In this document: one piece after another, positions 12,494 through 27,157 of the stretch
How the letters are laid out: each line of letters begins with the position of its first letter
Position numbering within the stretch: the stretch's first letter is position 1
DNA from: Halobacteriovoraceae bacterium
GTDB lineage: Bacteria; Bdellovibrionota; Bacteriovoracia; Bacteriovoracales; Bacteriovoracaceae
Direction: 5' to 3'
NCBI GenBank assembly: GCA_018646195.1
Contig: JABGVH010000234.1
Coordinates: 1-32,543 of the forward strand
Length of the DNA stretch: 32,543 nucleotides
Position numbers and translations under genes: made by a program
The notes under the pieces: generated by a model
What the model was told of the DNA's origin: nothing
The model's database searches: none
What the model saw: the letters and a program-made list of their open reading frames with translations, nothing else

Positions 12494-12535
12494 TATTTGA
12501 ATTTTTATTCAATTTATTTGAATAACCGTTCAATT
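12494..12535. promoter_or_regulatory. Two tandem 21-bp palindromic operators
   Basis: Two adjacent 21-base units (12494-12514 and 12515-12535) are identical at the first 9 bases (TATTTGAAT) and last 7 bases (TTCAATT) and differ only in the 5 central bases. Each contains a dyad: TTGAAT-TTTT-ATTCAA (12497-12512, perfect) and TTGAAT-AACC-GTTCAA (12518-12533, one mismatch). The 21-base spacing is two helical turns, so dimers would sit on the same DNA face. Conserved half-sites with a free centre are typical of TetR-family operators, and the TetR-type gene starts 25 bases away. Confidence 0.75.
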
Positions 12536-12546
12536 TCGGCCATTAT
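12518..12546 (+). promoter_or_regulatory. Likely promoter of the sphingolipid operon
   Basis: TTGAAT (12518-12523) and CATTAT (12541-12546) are separated by 17 bases and would start transcription near 12553, giving a leader of about 40 bases before ATG 12593. The -35 box coincides with the left half of the second palindromic repeat, so a bound regulator would block RNA polymerase. The element matches are modest (4 of 6 each), which fits a regulated promoter. Confidence 0.5.
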
Positions 12547-12592
12547 GCCTCACGGCGTAGGCCAATTCAAGATAAATTTGGAGTTGCGAAAA

Positions 12593-14734
12593 ATGAACAG
12601 AAAATTAAACGCTCAGCATGTAGTCCTATTTTTTCTTCTGCTCTTTATAATTGGCTGTGGCGTAGATGACCAGGCACCTGAGGATGGACAGGTCTTCAAA
12701 ATTGATGAATTGGCCCAGCAGTGTAAAGTCGATGGAGAAAAGCTTAAACTTTTTTTCCACGAAAAGATTGGCAATGACCTCAATTGTCTAGGTGATGGGT
12801 TAAGAACTTTTTCACAAGTCGTCCTAAGAGAGAATCCTAAGTACATTAACAGACCCGAGTTAAGCGCCTTTTTAAAGAAATTTTTTCCAAATGATTGGGC
12901 CCACTTAAAAGAATATCTTCCATTAATTTTTGAAATTAATTCCTTCTTAACTCGTACTCCTAAAAACCGTATTCAAATAAGCAAAATCAACCATTTCATA
13001 GAATTAATGGTGATTATAAATAGCGGTATAGTCGATATTATAGATATTCAAGAAAGGATGAGTCCGGAAACTTATTTTAACCACCTCCCCTCTTTTCAGA
13101 TTGCTATTACAAACTTTATAGTGAAACTCAATGGGTCAATTCTTAAAGAGGGCCTAGACTACCAACTAAACCTAATTGAAATTCTCAATATTCTAGAAAG
13201 AAATACCCAGGATGATGCAAAAGCCTATAAAAAAATAAAGAGTTTGTTATTTATTAAACGTCTTTTTATAGGAAATAGTGCTGAACTGCTAACGACGAAT
13301 GAACTTTTGAAAAATTTAAATAAAATTCAAGAGCTCTACCTAGCTGCTGATGGCATGCTAAATACAAATTTTAAAAGTTTTTCGAATCAAAAAGAACAGG
13401 CCTCTTTCTTAATTATCAATTTTAAAAAAATACGGGCAGCTCTTTTTCCATGGAACCCTAAAACTAAGATAATAAGTAGTGAAAAACTTCTGACTGCAAT
13501 AGGCTCCTTTTATCAGGGCTTCGATTGGTCAAAGTTAAAAGTTAGCTTTTCAAATTTTAAAGATAAAGTGGTCGGAAACCCCGGCCCTAGTTTTCTCTAT
13601 TCTGATTTCTTAAAAATATTTGATATTGGAAAACTCGGGCTATCACAGTTTTACTTCACCCAAATTTCATTTCAAAAACTCAAAACGTTACTACAAGCAG
13701 GAGTCAAAATAGAGGAGCTTGATTTTCCTGATGGCCCAGAATATGACTTCTTCTCTAAGGCAGAAAAAGACCGTTACTGGAAAATATTTAATACTATTTC
13801 TCTTCAATACCATTACTTTCTCGATAAAGAAGATCAGCAAAGTTTTCAATATAAGCTAAAGAGGAGTGAGAGAGGATTTACATTACTGACTGTCGTTAAA
13901 TGGGGCCTTCGAATAATTTTTGATAGCTACGGAGAGGGAAAGTCTTCACTTTCAAGAAAACAGCTCGCCTACTTTCTGAATCAATACAAAGAAATTCTTG
14001 TCGAATTAAATTTATGGTTAGTCGATAAAAATAAATTAATCAATGATATTGCTGAGGGAACCGATTTATTTCAAATGACTTCAAACGGAAACGGCTTGAT
14101 CGAGGAGGACGAAATAACTCAATTTATATTTACAGTGGTCCATTCAAGAAAGGTCAGTCATAAACTATTTGATTACTTAAAAGATATTTGCCAATATTCT
14201 TCAGCTAAAAAAATTGATCTTTCTTGCTATAGACGTCATTTCTACCCTACTTTTCTAGAGACTCTTGCTTACAAAGAGCAATACCCTCTCCTGAAAAGCT
14301 ATATCTCTCCAATGGCAAGTGAGGCAAAAGAACAATTCCTACGAGATGTAGAAATTAAATCAAGAATCCAGCCTAGCGAAAATATTCCGATGGATAAGAT
14401 TGATTTAACTCGGATTATTAATGCCTTTTCAAACCTAGAAACTTTATATATTCGATTTGATCACGACAAAAATCAAGTTTTAGAAAAAAATGAATTAAAC
14501 CAGGTTTTCAAATTATTTGAAGGTATCATAGCAACCGAGACCGGAAAGAAGATTGGCTCAAAAATTAATCGAAGTCTTTTTATCTATCTTATCAAGAAAG
14601 GACATGCACCTAGTAAGGCACAACTTATAAAATTTCATTTGTTTGGAAGTAAAAGAAAAGCAAAGCTAACAAAGAATAAAGTCGCAAAAATATTATCTCT
14701 ATTTGGCAAAAAGGAGTCATTCAATGACCACTAA
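12593..14734 (+). CDS. EF-hand lipoprotein, first gene of sphingolipid operon
   Basis: 713 residues when started at ATG 12593 (GGAG at 12580-12583). The frame is open from 12497, but that would place the start inside the operators. The N-terminus is a lipoprotein signal, LLLFIIGC, with the lipid-bearing Cys near residue 22. The body is helical and charged. It contains one good EF-hand loop, DHDKNQVLEKNE (623-634, acidic or Asn at positions 1, 3, 5, 9 and 12), and a second near 496-507 (TSNGNGLIEEDE) lacking Asp at position 1; a degenerate third may lie near 444. A calcium-binding envelope lipoprotein is therefore likely, probably at the outer membrane. No enzyme domain is recognised. The next gene starts before this one stops (11-base overlap). 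Confidence 0.8.
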   Translation: MNRKLNAQHVVLFFLLLFIIGCGVDDQAPEDGQVFKIDELAQQCKVDGEKLKLFFHEKIGNDLNCLGDGLRTFSQVVLRENPKYINRPELSAFLKKFFPNDWAHLKEYLPLIFEINSFLTRTPKNRIQISKINHFIELMVIINSGIVDIIDIQERMSPETYFNHLPSFQIAITNFIVKLNGSILKEGLDYQLNLIEILNILERNTQDDAKAYKKIKSLLFIKRLFIGNSAELLTTNELLKNLNKIQELYLAADGMLNTNFKSFSNQKEQASFLIINFKKIRAALFPWNPKTKIISSEKLLTAIGSFYQGFDWSKLKVSFSNFKDKVVGNPGPSFLYSDFLKIFDIGKLGLSQFYFTQISFQKLKTLLQAGVKIEELDFPDGPEYDFFSKAEKDRYWKIFNTISLQYHYFLDKEDQQSFQYKLKRSERGFTLLTVVKWGLRIIFDSYGEGKSSLSRKQLAYFLNQYKEILVELNLWLVDKNKLINDIAEGTDLFQMTSNGNGLIEEDEITQFIFTVVHSRKVSHKLFDYLKDICQYSSAKKIDLSCYRRHFYPTFLETLAYKEQYPLLKSYISPMASEAKEQFLRDVEIKSRIQPSENIPMDKIDLTRIINAFSNLETLYIRFDHDKNQVLEKNELNQVFKLFEGIIATETGKKIGSKINRSLFIYLIKKGHAPSKAQLIKFHLFGSKRKAKLTKNKVAKILSLFGKKESFNDH

Positions 14735-16160
14735 GCATTTATCATGGCCTATACACGGCGATAAACCTGAAAATATTTTGAAAAAATTGGAAGAGAAGAA
14801 AAAGTCCGATATCGACTGGGAGGGCGGGAAGGTTTTCAGCCTCGTATTTAAAACAGATAAGGAACTAGGAGATCTTTCCAAGGCCGCCTATAATATGTAT
14901 TTTTCAGAAAATGCCCTTAATCCTTCAGCTTTCCCAAGTCTCAAAGAGATGGAGAAAGATGTTGTAACCATGATGACCGAACTACTAGGCGGAAATGAAA
15001 ACTCAAGTGGCTCATTTACTTCCGGCGGGACCGAAAGCATTCTCATGGCAGTTAAAACTGCAAGAGAGTGGGCAAAAACCAATCACCCGGAAATAACTGA
15101 ACCAGAAATGATTATTCCTCTTACCGCTCACCCTGCATTTAATAAAGCAGCCCATTATTTTGGAATAAAGTTAATCACGATTGATACTGATCAATCGTAT
15201 AGGGCCGACCTCACACAACTAAGCGACAAAATCTCTTCCCGGACGATTTTAATTGTGGGGTCGGCTCCTTCATACCCTCAAGGAGTAATTGATCCAATAG
15301 AAAGCATGGCCAAGATAGCTAAGGAAAAAAATATTCTATTTCATGTTGATGCCTGTATTGGGGGAGTCTTACTTCCTTTTCTAAAACTAGATGGGGTGGT
15401 TTCCGAAAACTTTGATTTTTCAGTTCCTGGCGTCACCTCTATTTCCGCTGACCTCCATAAGTATGGATATACTCCCAAAGGTTCCAGTGTCGTACTCTAC
15501 AAGGATAAATCTTTAAAGAGATTTCAATTTTTTACTACCACCAATTGGCCAGGAGGAATGTACGGCTCACCGACCGTTACAGGAACTCGCCCGGGAGGAG
15601 CAATCGCTGGCTCTTGGGCAGTGATGCAATACCTCGGTTTTGAAGGTTATCAGAATCTTGCCCGGAAAATTTTTAAAGTCACCCAATCATATGCTGACAA
15701 AATAGATCAATTTGAAGGTATTTCATACGCCATGAGGCCAGAGAGCAGCATAATTTGTCTAACCTCTCAAAAATTTAATATTTATCAAATTGGCGATGAA
15801 ATGCAAAAAAGAGGCTGGCATTTGGATAGGCAACAAAATCCTTCGAGTTTACACATGACGGTAATGAAGGCCCATGAATTTGTACAGGATGAATTTTTTG
15901 AAGATTTAAAATTGTCTCTAGAGGTTGTGAAAAGCTTCGATAAAAAAATGCAAGGCCTAAAAACCTCCATGACAAGAGGAATGATTAAGGCGATGCCTTC
16001 TGGAATGGTTAGCTCTCTGATCAAGGGGAAAGGTAAGAAAATGGGCGAATCAAACCAAGACGAACCGAATACTGCTGCTATGTATGGCATGATGGGGGCG
16101 ATAAAAAAGCAAAGCGATCTTGATAGCCTTATATTAGATGTTATGGAGCAATTATTTTGA
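14724..16160 (+). CDS. Sphingosine-1-phosphate lyase family PLP enzyme
   Basis: 478 residues from ATG 14724, chosen because AAGGAG (14711-14716) sits 7 bases upstream; a TTG at 14703 in frame is rejected. Sphingosine-1-phosphate lyases split phosphorylated sphingoid bases into a long-chain aldehyde and phosphoethanolamine. The sequence follows the family closely: NALNPSAFPSLKEMEKDVV, GSFTSGGTESILMAVK, TAHPAFNKAAHYFG, GVIDP, FHVDACIGG, SISADLHKYGYTPKGSSVV with the PLP Lys246, and GGMYGSPTVTGTRPGG. It lacks the N-terminal membrane anchor of eukaryotic lyases, as known bacterial ones do. Related PLP decarboxylases (glutamate, tyrosine) lack the TAHPAFNKA and HKYGYTPKGSS combination. It overlaps both neighbours, which places it in one operon. 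Confidence 0.9.
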   Translation: MTTKHLSWPIHGDKPENILKKLEEKKKSDIDWEGGKVFSLVFKTDKELGDLSKAAYNMYFSENALNPSAFPSLKEMEKDVVTMMTELLGGNENSSGSFTSGGTESILMAVKTAREWAKTNHPEITEPEMIIPLTAHPAFNKAAHYFGIKLITIDTDQSYRADLTQLSDKISSRTILIVGSAPSYPQGVIDPIESMAKIAKEKNILFHVDACIGGVLLPFLKLDGVVSENFDFSVPGVTSISADLHKYGYTPKGSSVVLYKDKSLKRFQFFTTTNWPGGMYGSPTVTGTRPGGAIAGSWAVMQYLGFEGYQNLARKIFKVTQSYADKIDQFEGISYAMRPESSIICLTSQKFNIYQIGDEMQKRGWHLDRQQNPSSLHMTVMKAHEFVQDEFFEDLKLSLEVVKSFDKKMQGLKTSMTRGMIKAMPSGMVSSLIKGKGKKMGESNQDEPNTAAMYGMMGAIKKQSDLDSLILDVMEQLF

Positions 16161-24416: not shown

Positions 24417-24445
24417 TTGGCATAATTAGTATTCTTGGCTATAAA
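24417..24445 (+). promoter_or_regulatory. Promoter giving a probably leaderless transcript
   Basis: TTGGCA (24417-24422) and TATAAA (24440-24445) are spaced by exactly 17 bases. Transcription would start at about 24452, next to ATG 24453, and no Shine-Dalgarno precedes that ATG. A leaderless mRNA for the fused enzyme is therefore likely. Confidence 0.6.
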
Positions 24446-24452
24446 TTGGGTC

Positions 24453-26627
24453 ATGAAAAAAAAAATACTCTGCACCCTAGGACCTAGTTCACTCAACCGT
24501 AAAGTTATCAAGCGCCTTACCGACCTTGGAGTTGATCTATTTCGAATTAACCTCTCACATACCCAGTTAGATGAACTGCCAAACGTTATCGATGAAATTA
24601 GAAAACATACCCTCGTTCCAATCTGCCTCGACTCCGAAGGCGCTCAAGTCAGAACCGGAAATTTTTCTTTTGATGAATTAACAGTTAGCGACAATAGTCT
24701 TTTATATTTAACTAAAGATAAAAATAAGGAATCAGAAAAATACATAACTTTGAATTATCCAAGACTACTCGATCAAATTGAAGAGGGAGACTTTATCAAT
24801 ATTGATTTCAATTCAGTTCTCGCTCAAGCTGTCGAAAAAAGTGGCGATGATATTCTTATACGTATATTAAATGGCGGTAAAATCGGAAAAAACAAAGCTG
24901 TCACTATTCAGAAGAGCATCGAAATGCCGGCCTTAACAGATAAAGATAAGGCCTGTTTTAAGTTAGGTATCGAAAAAGGTATCGCTCATTTTGCCCTTTC
25001 TTTTGCCAACCGAGCTTCAGATGTTTTAGAGACACGAAATATTATTGGAGAGGATTCCTTCTTAATATCAAAAATCGAATGTACCAATGGCCTACTTAAT
25101 TTAGAAGAGATTACTTGTGCCAGTGATGCAATCTTGATTGACCGAGGTGATTTATCAAGGGAACAACCGATCGAAAGAATCCCTATGCTTCAGAGGCATA
25201 TCACCAGAGAAGCAGTTAGACTCAATAGAGAAGTTTATATTGCCACAAATTTACTAGAGACAATGATTGATTCACCTCAACCAACAAGAGCTGAAGTTAA
25301 TGATATTTATAATAGTCTTAGGGATGGAGCTGATGGGCTAGTACTTGCAGCCGAAACGGCGATCGGGAAATACCCTACCGAAGCGGCTTCAATGGTTGTT
25401 AAATTGATACATGAGTTCGAAAACGAAGACCAAGCCTTATTCGATGACCGGAGTTATTACCACGCTGATCCAATGTCCTTATTAATTCCTCCTCATGGAG
25501 GGAAATTAATAAATCGATACCGTCCAAATTATGATCTAAGTGGCTTAGAAAAGGCCCCACGCTTAACCGTTCAACTAAATGACTTGATGGATTGTGAACA
25601 GATAGCTTTTGGTACCTACTCTCCCGTAGAAGGATTTTTTACAAAAAAAGAATTAACTTCTGTGCTTAGTAACTATCGCCTTCCCTGTGGCACGGTCTGG
25701 CCACTACCACTTGTCTTGGCCATAAGCGATCAGCAGAGAAAGGGACTTAAAATAGGTCAAAAAGTTATATTACAAAGTGAATCGCTGACCGAACATGCTG
25801 TACTTGAAATTGAAGATCTCTATCAAATGGACCTCGATAAAATGGCCGAGGCATGGTTCGGAACTAACTCCATGGATCATCCGGGAGTTCTTCGCCTTCA
25901 CCAACAAGGAAATAATTTTATTGGTGGCAAAATACAATTAGTTAAGAAACTAGTTTCTTCTACTGGCCAGTATGAACTTACTCCTTACCAAACTCGTTTT
26001 ATTTTTAAAGCAAAGGGCTGGGCTAAAGTAGTAGGCTTCCACACCAGGAATATTCCTCACCGCGCCCACGAGTTTATTCAAAAAGAGGCCCTAGAGCGTT
26101 CCTTTGCGGACGGTTTGTTTATAAGTCCGGTTACAGGTCCAAAAAAGAAAGGCGACTTTAAAGGGGAGCCTATTTTAAAAAGCTATCAGGCACTCATCGA
26201 TGCCGGATGCTACCCAAAAGATAAAATTCTTCTCGGGGCATTCCCTACTTTCTCTCGTTATAGTGGCCCTAGAGAGGCGGTCTTCACCGCTCTTTGCAGA
26301 AAGAACCTAGGCTGTAGCCACTTTATAATTGGAAGGGATCATACCGGAGTTAGTAATTTCTATGGCCCTGATGAGAATTTTAATTTATTTAAAAAACTAG
26401 GCGAAATAGAAATTGAACCCGTCTTTTTTAATATTGTTGGCTATAATCCTGAAAAAGAAAACTATGAAGAATCAACAAGTGCTACTAAACATTTAGAAAA
26501 TATTAGTGGTACCCAAGTGAGAGATGCCCTCAAAAAAGATAATCCCCTTCCCACTTGGTTCATAAGAGAAGAAGTTCAAAATGTAATCCGTGAAGAAATT
26601 CAAGTCGGCAAGCAGGTTTTCTACTGA
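24453..26627 (+). CDS. Pyruvate kinase-ATP sulfurylase fusion
   Basis: 724 residues from ATG 24453, where the pyruvate-kinase start KKKILCTLGPSS fits; a TTG at 24435 would add six residues. Residues 1-325 are a pyruvate kinase barrel: FRINLSH (30-36), LDSEGAQVRTG (59-69), LISKIE with Lys207 and Glu209, IDRGDL with Asp233, and Thr265 in IATNLLETM. The C-terminal pyruvate-kinase allosteric domain is absent, and Lys of the usual TKGPE motif is Glu62. Residues 350-724 are ATP sulfurylase: FHTRNIPHRAHEF, GRDHTGVSNFYG and ISGTQVRDAL are the nucleotide and sulfate motifs. The sulfurylase makes APS from sulfate and ATP. The kinase domain could regenerate ATP from PEP or be regulatory, which is inference. 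APS kinase follows with a one-base overlap. Confidence 0.88.
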   Translation: MKKKILCTLGPSSLNRKVIKRLTDLGVDLFRINLSHTQLDELPNVIDEIRKHTLVPICLDSEGAQVRTGNFSFDELTVSDNSLLYLTKDKNKESEKYITLNYPRLLDQIEEGDFINIDFNSVLAQAVEKSGDDILIRILNGGKIGKNKAVTIQKSIEMPALTDKDKACFKLGIEKGIAHFALSFANRASDVLETRNIIGEDSFLISKIECTNGLLNLEEITCASDAILIDRGDLSREQPIERIPMLQRHITREAVRLNREVYIATNLLETMIDSPQPTRAEVNDIYNSLRDGADGLVLAAETAIGKYPTEAASMVVKLIHEFENEDQALFDDRSYYHADPMSLLIPPHGGKLINRYRPNYDLSGLEKAPRLTVQLNDLMDCEQIAFGTYSPVEGFFTKKELTSVLSNYRLPCGTVWPLPLVLAISDQQRKGLKIGQKVILQSESLTEHAVLEIEDLYQMDLDKMAEAWFGTNSMDHPGVLRLHQQGNNFIGGKIQLVKKLVSSTGQYELTPYQTRFIFKAKGWAKVVGFHTRNIPHRAHEFIQKEALERSFADGLFISPVTGPKKKGDFKGEPILKSYQALIDAGCYPKDKILLGAFPTFSRYSGPREAVFTALCRKNLGCSHFIIGRDHTGVSNFYGPDENFNLFKKLGEIEIEPVFFNIVGYNPEKENYEESTSATKHLENISGTQVRDALKKDNPLPTWFIREEVQNVIREEIQVGKQVFY

Positions 26628-27157
26628 TGGCACTTGTTCTTTGGCTGACTGGCTTATCTGGTTCCGGAAAGACCACTTTGGCTGAATACGCTGCGAAGGA
26701 ATTATCTGAAAAAAAGACGTCCTCTACTATTATTGATGGAGATGATGTTCGCGATTCTTATCCAGAAAAACTAGGTTTTTCAAAAGTAGATATTCTTAAA
26801 AACAATCGCTATATAGTCGAGCTCTGCCAAAAAAAATCGGACCTTTTTGACGTCATATTTGTCCCGGTCATTTCGCCATACGAAGAGTCGAGAGCACATG
26901 CACTTAAAACTCTGGGAAAAAGCTGCAGTATTATTTATCTCAATGCCGATCTAGCATCTGTAGAAAAACGCGATGTAAAAGGCCTCTATAAAAAGGCGCG
27001 CGCCGGGATTATAAATAATATGATTGGATTGGCCGATTCAAACCCCTACCAAGTCCCCTCTTCACCGGACTTAATACTAAGCACTGGCCTTAATGGAGAC
27101 GCCCCAGAGGCCAGCCTCAAACAACTATTGGCCTTTATCGAGCAAAAATTATGCTAA
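26627..27157 (+). CDS. cysC: Adenylylsulfate (APS) kinase
   Basis: 176 residues. The enzyme phosphorylates APS to PAPS, the sulfate donor for sulfotransferases. Walker A GLSGSGKTT (9-17), the DGDDVR box (37-42), ISPYEESR (82-89) and VKGLYKKARAG (117-127) match the family. The C-terminal NPYQVPSSPDLIL is also typical. The start overlaps the stop of the fused sulfurylase by one base (TGATG), so sulfate goes to APS and then PAPS in coupled fashion. No CysH, CysD or CysN gene is near, so PAPS may serve sulfation of glycans or lipids rather than cysteine synthesis. Confidence 0.92.
   Translation: MALVLWLTGLSGSGKTTLAEYAAKELSEKKTSSTIIDGDDVRDSYPEKLGFSKVDILKNNRYIVELCQKKSDLFDVIFVPVISPYEESRAHALKTLGKSCSIIYLNADLASVEKRDVKGLYKKARAGIINNMIGLADSNPYQVPSSPDLILSTGLNGDAPEASLKQLLAFIEQKLC

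Follow-up and report, generated by a model that had tools for sequence, protein, structure and literature searches.

A pyruvate kinase-type barrel fused to ATP sulfurylase appears to be one form of a small, mobile module that probably supports sulfate activation

Fusions of ATP sulfurylase with inorganic pyrophosphatase occur in diatoms, Phytophthora and haptophytes, as described in passages of two papers (PMC2275785, PMC3734648), and APS kinase-ATP sulfurylase-pyrophosphatase fusions are described for diatoms in a passage of the second paper (PMC3734648). Fungal ATP sulfurylase carries, according to an excerpt of PMC2275785, a regulatory APS-kinase-like domain. With regard to PAPS synthesis in the test tube, sections of PMC9885120 indicate that pyruvate kinase and PEP are added because APS kinase is stalled by the ADP that it produces; when pyruvate kinase/PEP was left out, human PAPSS1 yielded ADP and hardly any PAPS, and regeneration was needed because ADP together with APS blocks APS kinase. 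An enzyme-ADP-APS dead-end complex of APS kinase is described in a passage of PMC3734648.

The locus described here encodes a pyruvate kinase barrel fused to ATP sulfurylase, in a gene that overlaps a separate gene for APS kinase. As the cited passages describe them, ATP sulfurylase-pyrophosphatase fusions likewise carry an accessory enzyme by which sulfate activation is drawn towards its products, but they remove PPi, whereas the barrel here would remove ADP and regenerate ATP. PAPS synthases hold APS kinase and ATP sulfurylase in one chain and carry out the same two reactions, which are here assigned to overlapping genes; the locus thus encodes not a single-chain PAPS synthase but two polypeptides, one of which carries a pyruvate kinase barrel as an extra part. 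In vitro PAPS regeneration, as outlined in parts of PMC9885120, uses pyruvate kinase/PEP to recycle the ADP of APS kinase, as we propose for the natural module, but is a mixture of separate enzymes with an ordinary pyruvate kinase. Fungal ATP sulfurylase also has an extra nucleotide-enzyme domain, but in the excerpt cited (PMC2275785) this domain is C-terminal and a relative of APS kinase, whereas the present chain has an N-terminal pyruvate kinase barrel with its catalytic residues kept. The parts are covered by known kinds (ATP sulfurylase with an accessory enzyme; pyruvate kinase, EC 2.7.1.40), and the combination and the altered barrel are not described in the literature searched; among open-licence PMC papers, no published description of either was found. 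To our knowledge, the pyruvate kinase fold is known almost only from glycolysis.

A preliminary description of this DNA had proposed, from the sequence alone, a pyruvate kinase barrel without its C-terminal domain fused to ATP sulfurylase in the window (i.e., the whole stretch of DNA that was analysed, 32,543 nucleotides of a Halobacteriovoraceae bacterium contig). This observation was confirmed: its coordinates for the gene are right, Pfam models PF00224, PF14306 and PF01747 match in one frame (Table 1), and PK_C (PF02887) is not matched by Pfam in the fusion chain and is matched in the same genome's other pyruvate kinase.

Table 1. Positions of the fusion gene, its parts and the overlapping APS kinase gene in the window
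Feature	Position	Strand	Evidence
Pyruvate kinase barrel - PUA-like - ATP sulfurylase fusion gene, 724 aa	24453..26627	+	single open frame; Pfam; same chain in G007, G095, G102 and two rhizobial plasmids
Pyruvate kinase barrel with B-domain lid, residues 2-311, without pyruvate kinase C-terminal domain	24456..25385	+	PF00224 E 6e-71; AlphaFold2
Asp230 codon, motif DRGDLS (Ala in ordinary pyruvate kinases)	25140..25142	+	D in 11/11 module barrels, A in 53/53 ordinary pyruvate kinases
PUA-like N-terminal domain of ATP sulfurylase, residues 345-498	25485..25946	+	PF14306 (PUA_2) E 9e-38
ATP sulfurylase catalytic domain, residues 506-714; HxxH, GRDH and SGT kept, FQTRN changed to FHTRN	25968..26594	+	PF01747 E 7e-68; motif counts
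TGATG, fusion stop overlapping APS kinase start	26625..26629	+	sequence
APS kinase (cysC), 176 aa	26627..27157	+	PF01583 E 4e-38; TIGR00455 143.1 bits (cut-off 138.7)

The fusion reading frame runs from the ATG at 24453 to the TGA at 26625-26627 without an internal stop; an in-frame TTG at 24435, 18 bases before this ATG, is a possible true start, and no strong ribosome-binding site was seen by eye. The barrel scores 239.6 bits with PF00224 (gathering cut-off 30), and PF01747 and PF14306, taken as criteria for ATP sulfurylase of the Sat/MET3 type, are both over their cut-offs. With TIGR01064, the NCBIfam pyruvate kinase equivalog, the fusion scores 285.6 bits, below the cut-off of 306.4, and with TIGR00339, the NCBIfam ATP sulfurylase model, 313.6 bits, below the cut-off of 322.95; the latter is passed by the fusion of genome G102 (329.7 bits). 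No pyrophosphatase domain was found in the chain by Pfam. Elsewhere in the window, an epimerase family gene (Pfam) lies near the fusion gene, and positions 12497-16160 hold a frame of 745 aa that no Pfam model matched and, behind and overlapping it, a gene resembling PLP-dependent decarboxylases.

The concern that an assembly or frame error had joined two genes can be set aside with near certainty, as full-length homologous chains exist in five other records, two of which are complete circular plasmid records. The same fused chain is present in three other genera of the window family (genomes G007, G095 and G102) and on two rhizobial megaplasmids, and identity between the fused chain and these full-length chains is 47-53%. 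In a sample of 59 relatives, the G007 fusion is intact (48% identity over residues 5-723), and G044 and G054 have a barrel-only pyruvate kinase adjoining a separate ATP sulfurylase gene. When 368 genomes of the phylum were searched with the ATP sulfurylase half, eight had a match; the fused form is present in four of these (G000, which is the window genome, G007, G095 and G102) and a separate form in the other four (G044, G054, G292 and G310), in which the ATP sulfurylase gene is directly followed by a barrel gene. In G310 this barrel gene is itself fused to APS kinase (498 aa; TIGR00455 158.7 bits at residues 321-496, behind the barrel), and the barrel has thus swapped partners, being fused to ATP sulfurylase in six sequences and to APS kinase in G310. 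Among plasmid records, 187 had any match and two covered at least 80% of the protein, both with 47.6% identity (Sinorhizobium chiapasense pA and Ensifer adhaerens pCTYH.Ch1_1); the gene next to the fusion on the S. chiapasense plasmid encodes APS kinase. Genes of the module overlap or nearly so. The reading of the fusion as a structural scaffold, or as a chance joining without function, is very improbable: nothing positive favours it, and against it stand the same fusion at this level of divergence in six sequences from the window phylum and Pseudomonadota plasmids, the separate-gene version in four more genomes, and the invariant catalytic residues described below. Viral scans revealed no relatives of the whole fusion protein, of the separate-type barrels or of the ATP sulfurylase, matches in phage records were no better than 34% identity over at least a third of the protein, and a scan of genome contigs with the single protein returned one ordinary pyruvate kinase only.

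As a control for chance adjacency, we used 299 genomes from the phylum of Lachnoanaerobaculum, 60 of which had ATP sulfurylase; 30 loci with flanks of about 1.5 kb and eight further stretches, one of them a repeat, gave 37 distinct loci. APS kinase was found at 13 of the 30 loci of the first set and at four of the eight further stretches, and a pyruvate kinase barrel at none of the 37 sat loci, as compared to eight of eight genomes in the window phylum with the barrel fused to or beside ATP sulfurylase. That the barrel serves sulfate activation is therefore well supported by gene context, including its alternate fusion to ATP sulfurylase or APS kinase, and the preliminary description's proposal of an ATP supply for an uphill sulfurylase, or of a regulatory use of the barrel, is to that extent supported. 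As judged from these sequence comparisons, the fusion appears to be one form of a small, mobile module that pairs a specialised pyruvate kinase barrel with sulfate activation.

Residue conservation was counted in an alignment of 11 module barrels (six fused, four separate and one from a phage) and 53 ordinary pyruvate kinases of at least 400 aa; the latter include many near-identical sequences from viral contigs, which are not independent, and 33 are left after thinning at 70% identity. All 11 module barrels share R31, N33, H36, D60, R67, K148, K207, E209, R231, D233, T265 and E301 without exception. The window protein has each of the residues that the preliminary description had listed as retained (R31, N33, S35, D60, K207, E209, D233 and T265), while S35 is Ala in three of the four separate-type barrels. 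For rabbit pyruvate kinase we take the catalytic residues to be numbered R72, N74, D112, R119, K269, E271, D295 and T327. As in muscle pyruvate kinase structures, positions 228, 230 and 297 presumably surround the methyl group of PEP/pyruvate in its pocket. Position 230 is Asp in 11/11 module barrels and Ala in 53/53 ordinary enzymes, and position 297 is Val (seven barrels, including the window protein) or Gln (four) as compared to Met in 53/53. In addition, position 235 is Ser in all 11 barrels and Gly or Ala in ordinary enzymes. A literature search on the role of pyruvate kinase Ala292 gave nothing useful. The altered TKGPE box was also read correctly at the outset, with E62 and Q65 present and Q65 standing where muscle pyruvate kinase has the Glu of its potassium position; position 65 is Gln in 7/7 barrels of the fused type plus phage, Lys in the four separate barrels, and Lys (45) or Glu (8) in ordinary enzymes. 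The module barrels thus have an intact catalytic set and an altered pocket.

An AlphaFold2 model of the barrel, made with 16 other alignment rows, has a mean pLDDT of 91.9; the nearest solved fold is that of E. coli PykF, with about 32% identity and a Foldseek TM (normalised by the model) of 0.88-0.91, and muscle pyruvate kinases align with it at a VIA-align Z of 40.4 (rmsd 2.9, 330 aligned). In a full-length AlphaFold2 model, the ATP sulfurylase half, for which there were no alignment rows, is mostly below pLDDT 50. The barrel shares with glycolytic pyruvate kinases (E. coli PykF/PykA) the barrel plus B-domain fold (TM about 0.9) and the catalytic residues, but differs from them in lacking the C-terminal domain, in having D230, S235 and V297, in having EGAQ where TKGPE or LQGPK stands, and in its sulfate-activation gene context.

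The sulfurylase half of the fusions has also diverged, since two of its motifs are changed in all six: FQTRNP has become FH[TSG]RN[IVL] (His530), the Gln being kept in 4/4 separate-type and 34/35 clostridial enzymes, and the His of GPREAxFH has become Thr (612), the other 39 enzymes having His. HxxH, GRDH and SGT are retained in the fusion sulfurylase, but given this divergence it may or may not be active. The separate ATP sulfurylase of G292 has GRDQ in place of GRDH.

These changes bear on an alternative that we regard as possible, though improbable, namely that the barrel is catalytic in sulfate activation but acts on another substrate, with the methyl pocket rebuilt around the new Asp and with a donor and acceptor other than PEP and ADP. 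D230 and S235 in 11/11 barrels and Val or Gln at 297, as compared to Ala, Gly/Ala and Met in 53/53 ordinary enzymes, would fit this alternative, as would the Q530H and H612T changes in 6/6 fusions and the existence of two genomes that have no detectable APS kinase and a CDP-glycerol-phosphotransferase-like gene adjoining the pair (see below); however, all catalytic, metal and phosphate residues that could be named, and likewise the lid lysine K148, are kept in 11/11 barrels, the one exception being S35 in three of them, and no partner enzyme points to an alternative substrate. If the altered pocket does mean a new substrate, the pyruvate kinase fold would be shown to support a new reaction. 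Rather less probable is a regulatory barrel, the other use suggested in the preliminary description, that binds PEP or a nucleotide as a sensor and tunes sulfurylase or APS kinase; while the fused regulatory domain of fungal ATP sulfurylase, as described in part of PMC2275785, provides a precedent and the altered pocket would be compatible, a pure sensor should in time lose its catalytic residues and yet these are kept in 11/11, and the barrel also occurs as a separate gene and fused to either partner.

In phylogenetic analyses, the fused-type barrels, including the phage barrel, formed a single group (100/100), and so did the separate-type barrels (100/99). A shared origin of the two groups received 98/96 in a first tree, which carried a long-branch warning, and 72/84 in a tree with the DRGDLS columns dropped and more pyruvate kinases added, which carried the same warning. 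An ATP sulfurylase tree, for which 16 of the 35 clostridial enzymes of the motif count were taken, placed fused and separate types together as against those 16 (100/97). Either outcome for the barrels would be of interest: they would represent a single specialised family, or else D230 and S235 would have arisen in each of two recruitments.

The phage barrel is a stand-alone barrel of the fused type, with 46% identity to the window barrel, on the 88.8-kb viral contig IMGVR_UViG_3300027779_001649, where its neighbours include T4-type genes (PHROG matches to late sigma factor and to SbcD-like and SbcC-like subunits). A kinase/nucleotidyltransferase pair lies just ahead of it, both members matching phrog_10255 'kinase', and the same phage stretch (L115:2526-5972) also holds a radical SAM gene. 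A broader proposal, which we offer tentatively and consider somewhat less likely to be right than wrong, is that these barrels constitute an apparently undescribed pyruvate kinase-type subfamily that moved from glycolysis to sulfate activation, with an active site rebuilt around the invariant Asp230 that would provide either a new phosphoryl-transfer specificity or a PEP-driven coupling for PAPS, and that this subfamily swaps between ATP sulfurylase and APS kinase as partners, has a T4-like phage among its carriers and is transferred from one phylum to another.

Another, full-length pyruvate kinase is encoded in each of the eight ATP sulfurylase genomes (in the window genome on a different contig), and we therefore rejected the possibility that the module barrel is the cell's glycolytic enzyme. 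Sulfate assimilation for cysteine was likewise rejected. We take PF01507 to cover both CysD and CysH; its matches are weak (20-28 bits; over the cut-off in six of the eight genomes, those listed representing four loci with frames of 457-536 aa), and as the best reaches only 28 bits, CysD and CysH were taken as absent. APS kinase is present in six of the eight genomes and was not detectable in G292 (94% complete) or G054 (93% complete). Sulfotransferase families were found in four of the eight genomes (Sulfotransfer_3 in G007, G095 and G310; Sulfotransfer_1 in G102 and G310), in each case inside or near the module and in three directly adjoining it: the sulfotransferase gene is the next gene upstream of the fusion in G095, the next gene after APS kinase in G102 and the next gene after the pyruvate kinase-APS kinase fusion in G310, and in G007 it lies beside APS kinase, about 11 kb away. 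Neither Sulfotransfer_1 nor Sulfotransfer_3 was found in the window genome. Glycan-related genes also occur at these loci, including NeuB, a cytidylyltransferase and ABC export with a Wzt domain in G292, an O-antigen-ligase family gene in Sinorhizobium and the epimerase family gene near the fusion gene in the window. PAPS for sulfation would be the natural reading of this context.

With regard to PPi, soluble pyrophosphatase (PF00719) is present in one of the eight genomes and membrane pyrophosphatase (PF03030) in all eight. The ATP-supply logic initially put forward for the barrel is the weaker part of that proposal: more ATP would not on its own overcome the equilibrium of ATP sulfurylase, which is a pyrophosphate problem; ADP from APS kinase would be a more sensible target for the barrel than the sulfurylase equilibrium. 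The overlapping APS kinase gene, the invariant D230 and the changes in the sulfurylase half had not been named in the preliminary description.

Taken together, these data suggest that the barrel probably has a dedicated supporting role in the production of the reagent that the cell uses for sulfation. The best reading, with a probability of roughly 0.5, is that it draws on PEP to regenerate ATP and remove ADP while PAPS is made. The fusion and the overlapping APS kinase gene would form a PAPS-making module with its own energy helper, in which the ATP sulfurylase half would produce APS and PPi, APS kinase would convert APS and ATP to PAPS and ADP, and the pyruvate kinase barrel, attached to either of these enzymes, would use PEP to turn the ADP back into ATP, with PPi left to the membrane pyrophosphatase. 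Without its C-terminal domain, the barrel would escape the allosteric control to which glycolytic pyruvate kinase is usually subject, and the PAPS would be destined for sulfotransferases acting on surface glycans or other metabolites, rather than for cysteine synthesis. ATP regeneration is favoured by the linkage (8/8 vs. 0/37), the partner swap and the overlapping genes; by the catalytic residues kept in 11/11 barrels, the confident pyruvate kinase fold and the separate pyruvate kinase in 8/8 genomes; by sulfotransferase families in 4/8 genomes along with no PF01507 match of CysD/CysH strength; and by biochemical precedent, as given in the cited portions of PMC9885120 (pyruvate kinase/PEP with PAPSS1) and PMC3734648 (the ADP-APS dead-end complex). 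By contrast, the strongest facts against ATP regeneration are G292 and G054, in which ADP recycling has no obvious job, and the changed pocket (A to D at 230 and M to V/Q at 297 in 11/11), with which PEP may not be the substrate; S35 being Ala in three of four separate barrels and the lack of either sulfotransferase family in the window genome also argue against it. If ATP regeneration is correct, a natural fusion of helper and ATP sulfurylase (or APS kinase) would represent a ready-made PAPS generator and would show cells paying for sulfation from PEP.

The ATP sulfurylase and barrel pair may have a different job in G292 and G054. In both genomes, the pair (L034:7193-10452 in G292 and L036:7804-10975 in G054) adjoins a CDP-glycerol-phosphotransferase-like gene (PF04464), and in G054 a sulfatase-family gene (PF00884; L036:5713-7344) lies upstream of the pair. 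Sinorhizobium (L037:14815-16071) and G310 (L033:12828-14138), which belong to different phyla, both have a gene of the Na+/H+ exchanger family (PF00999) close to the module, and this may be coincidence. In G044, contig 68, which carries the module, also has a second copy of the membrane pyrophosphatase gene (13750-15857); this copy is divided between two frames, one of which contains a TAG. Finally, the full-length pyruvate kinase of the window genome (L002:1447-3180, contig 36) has a C-terminal 4Fe-4S ferredoxin-like extension, with Fer4 matches behind PK_C, and many members of the family have pyruvate kinase frames of similar length (about 560-578 aa).
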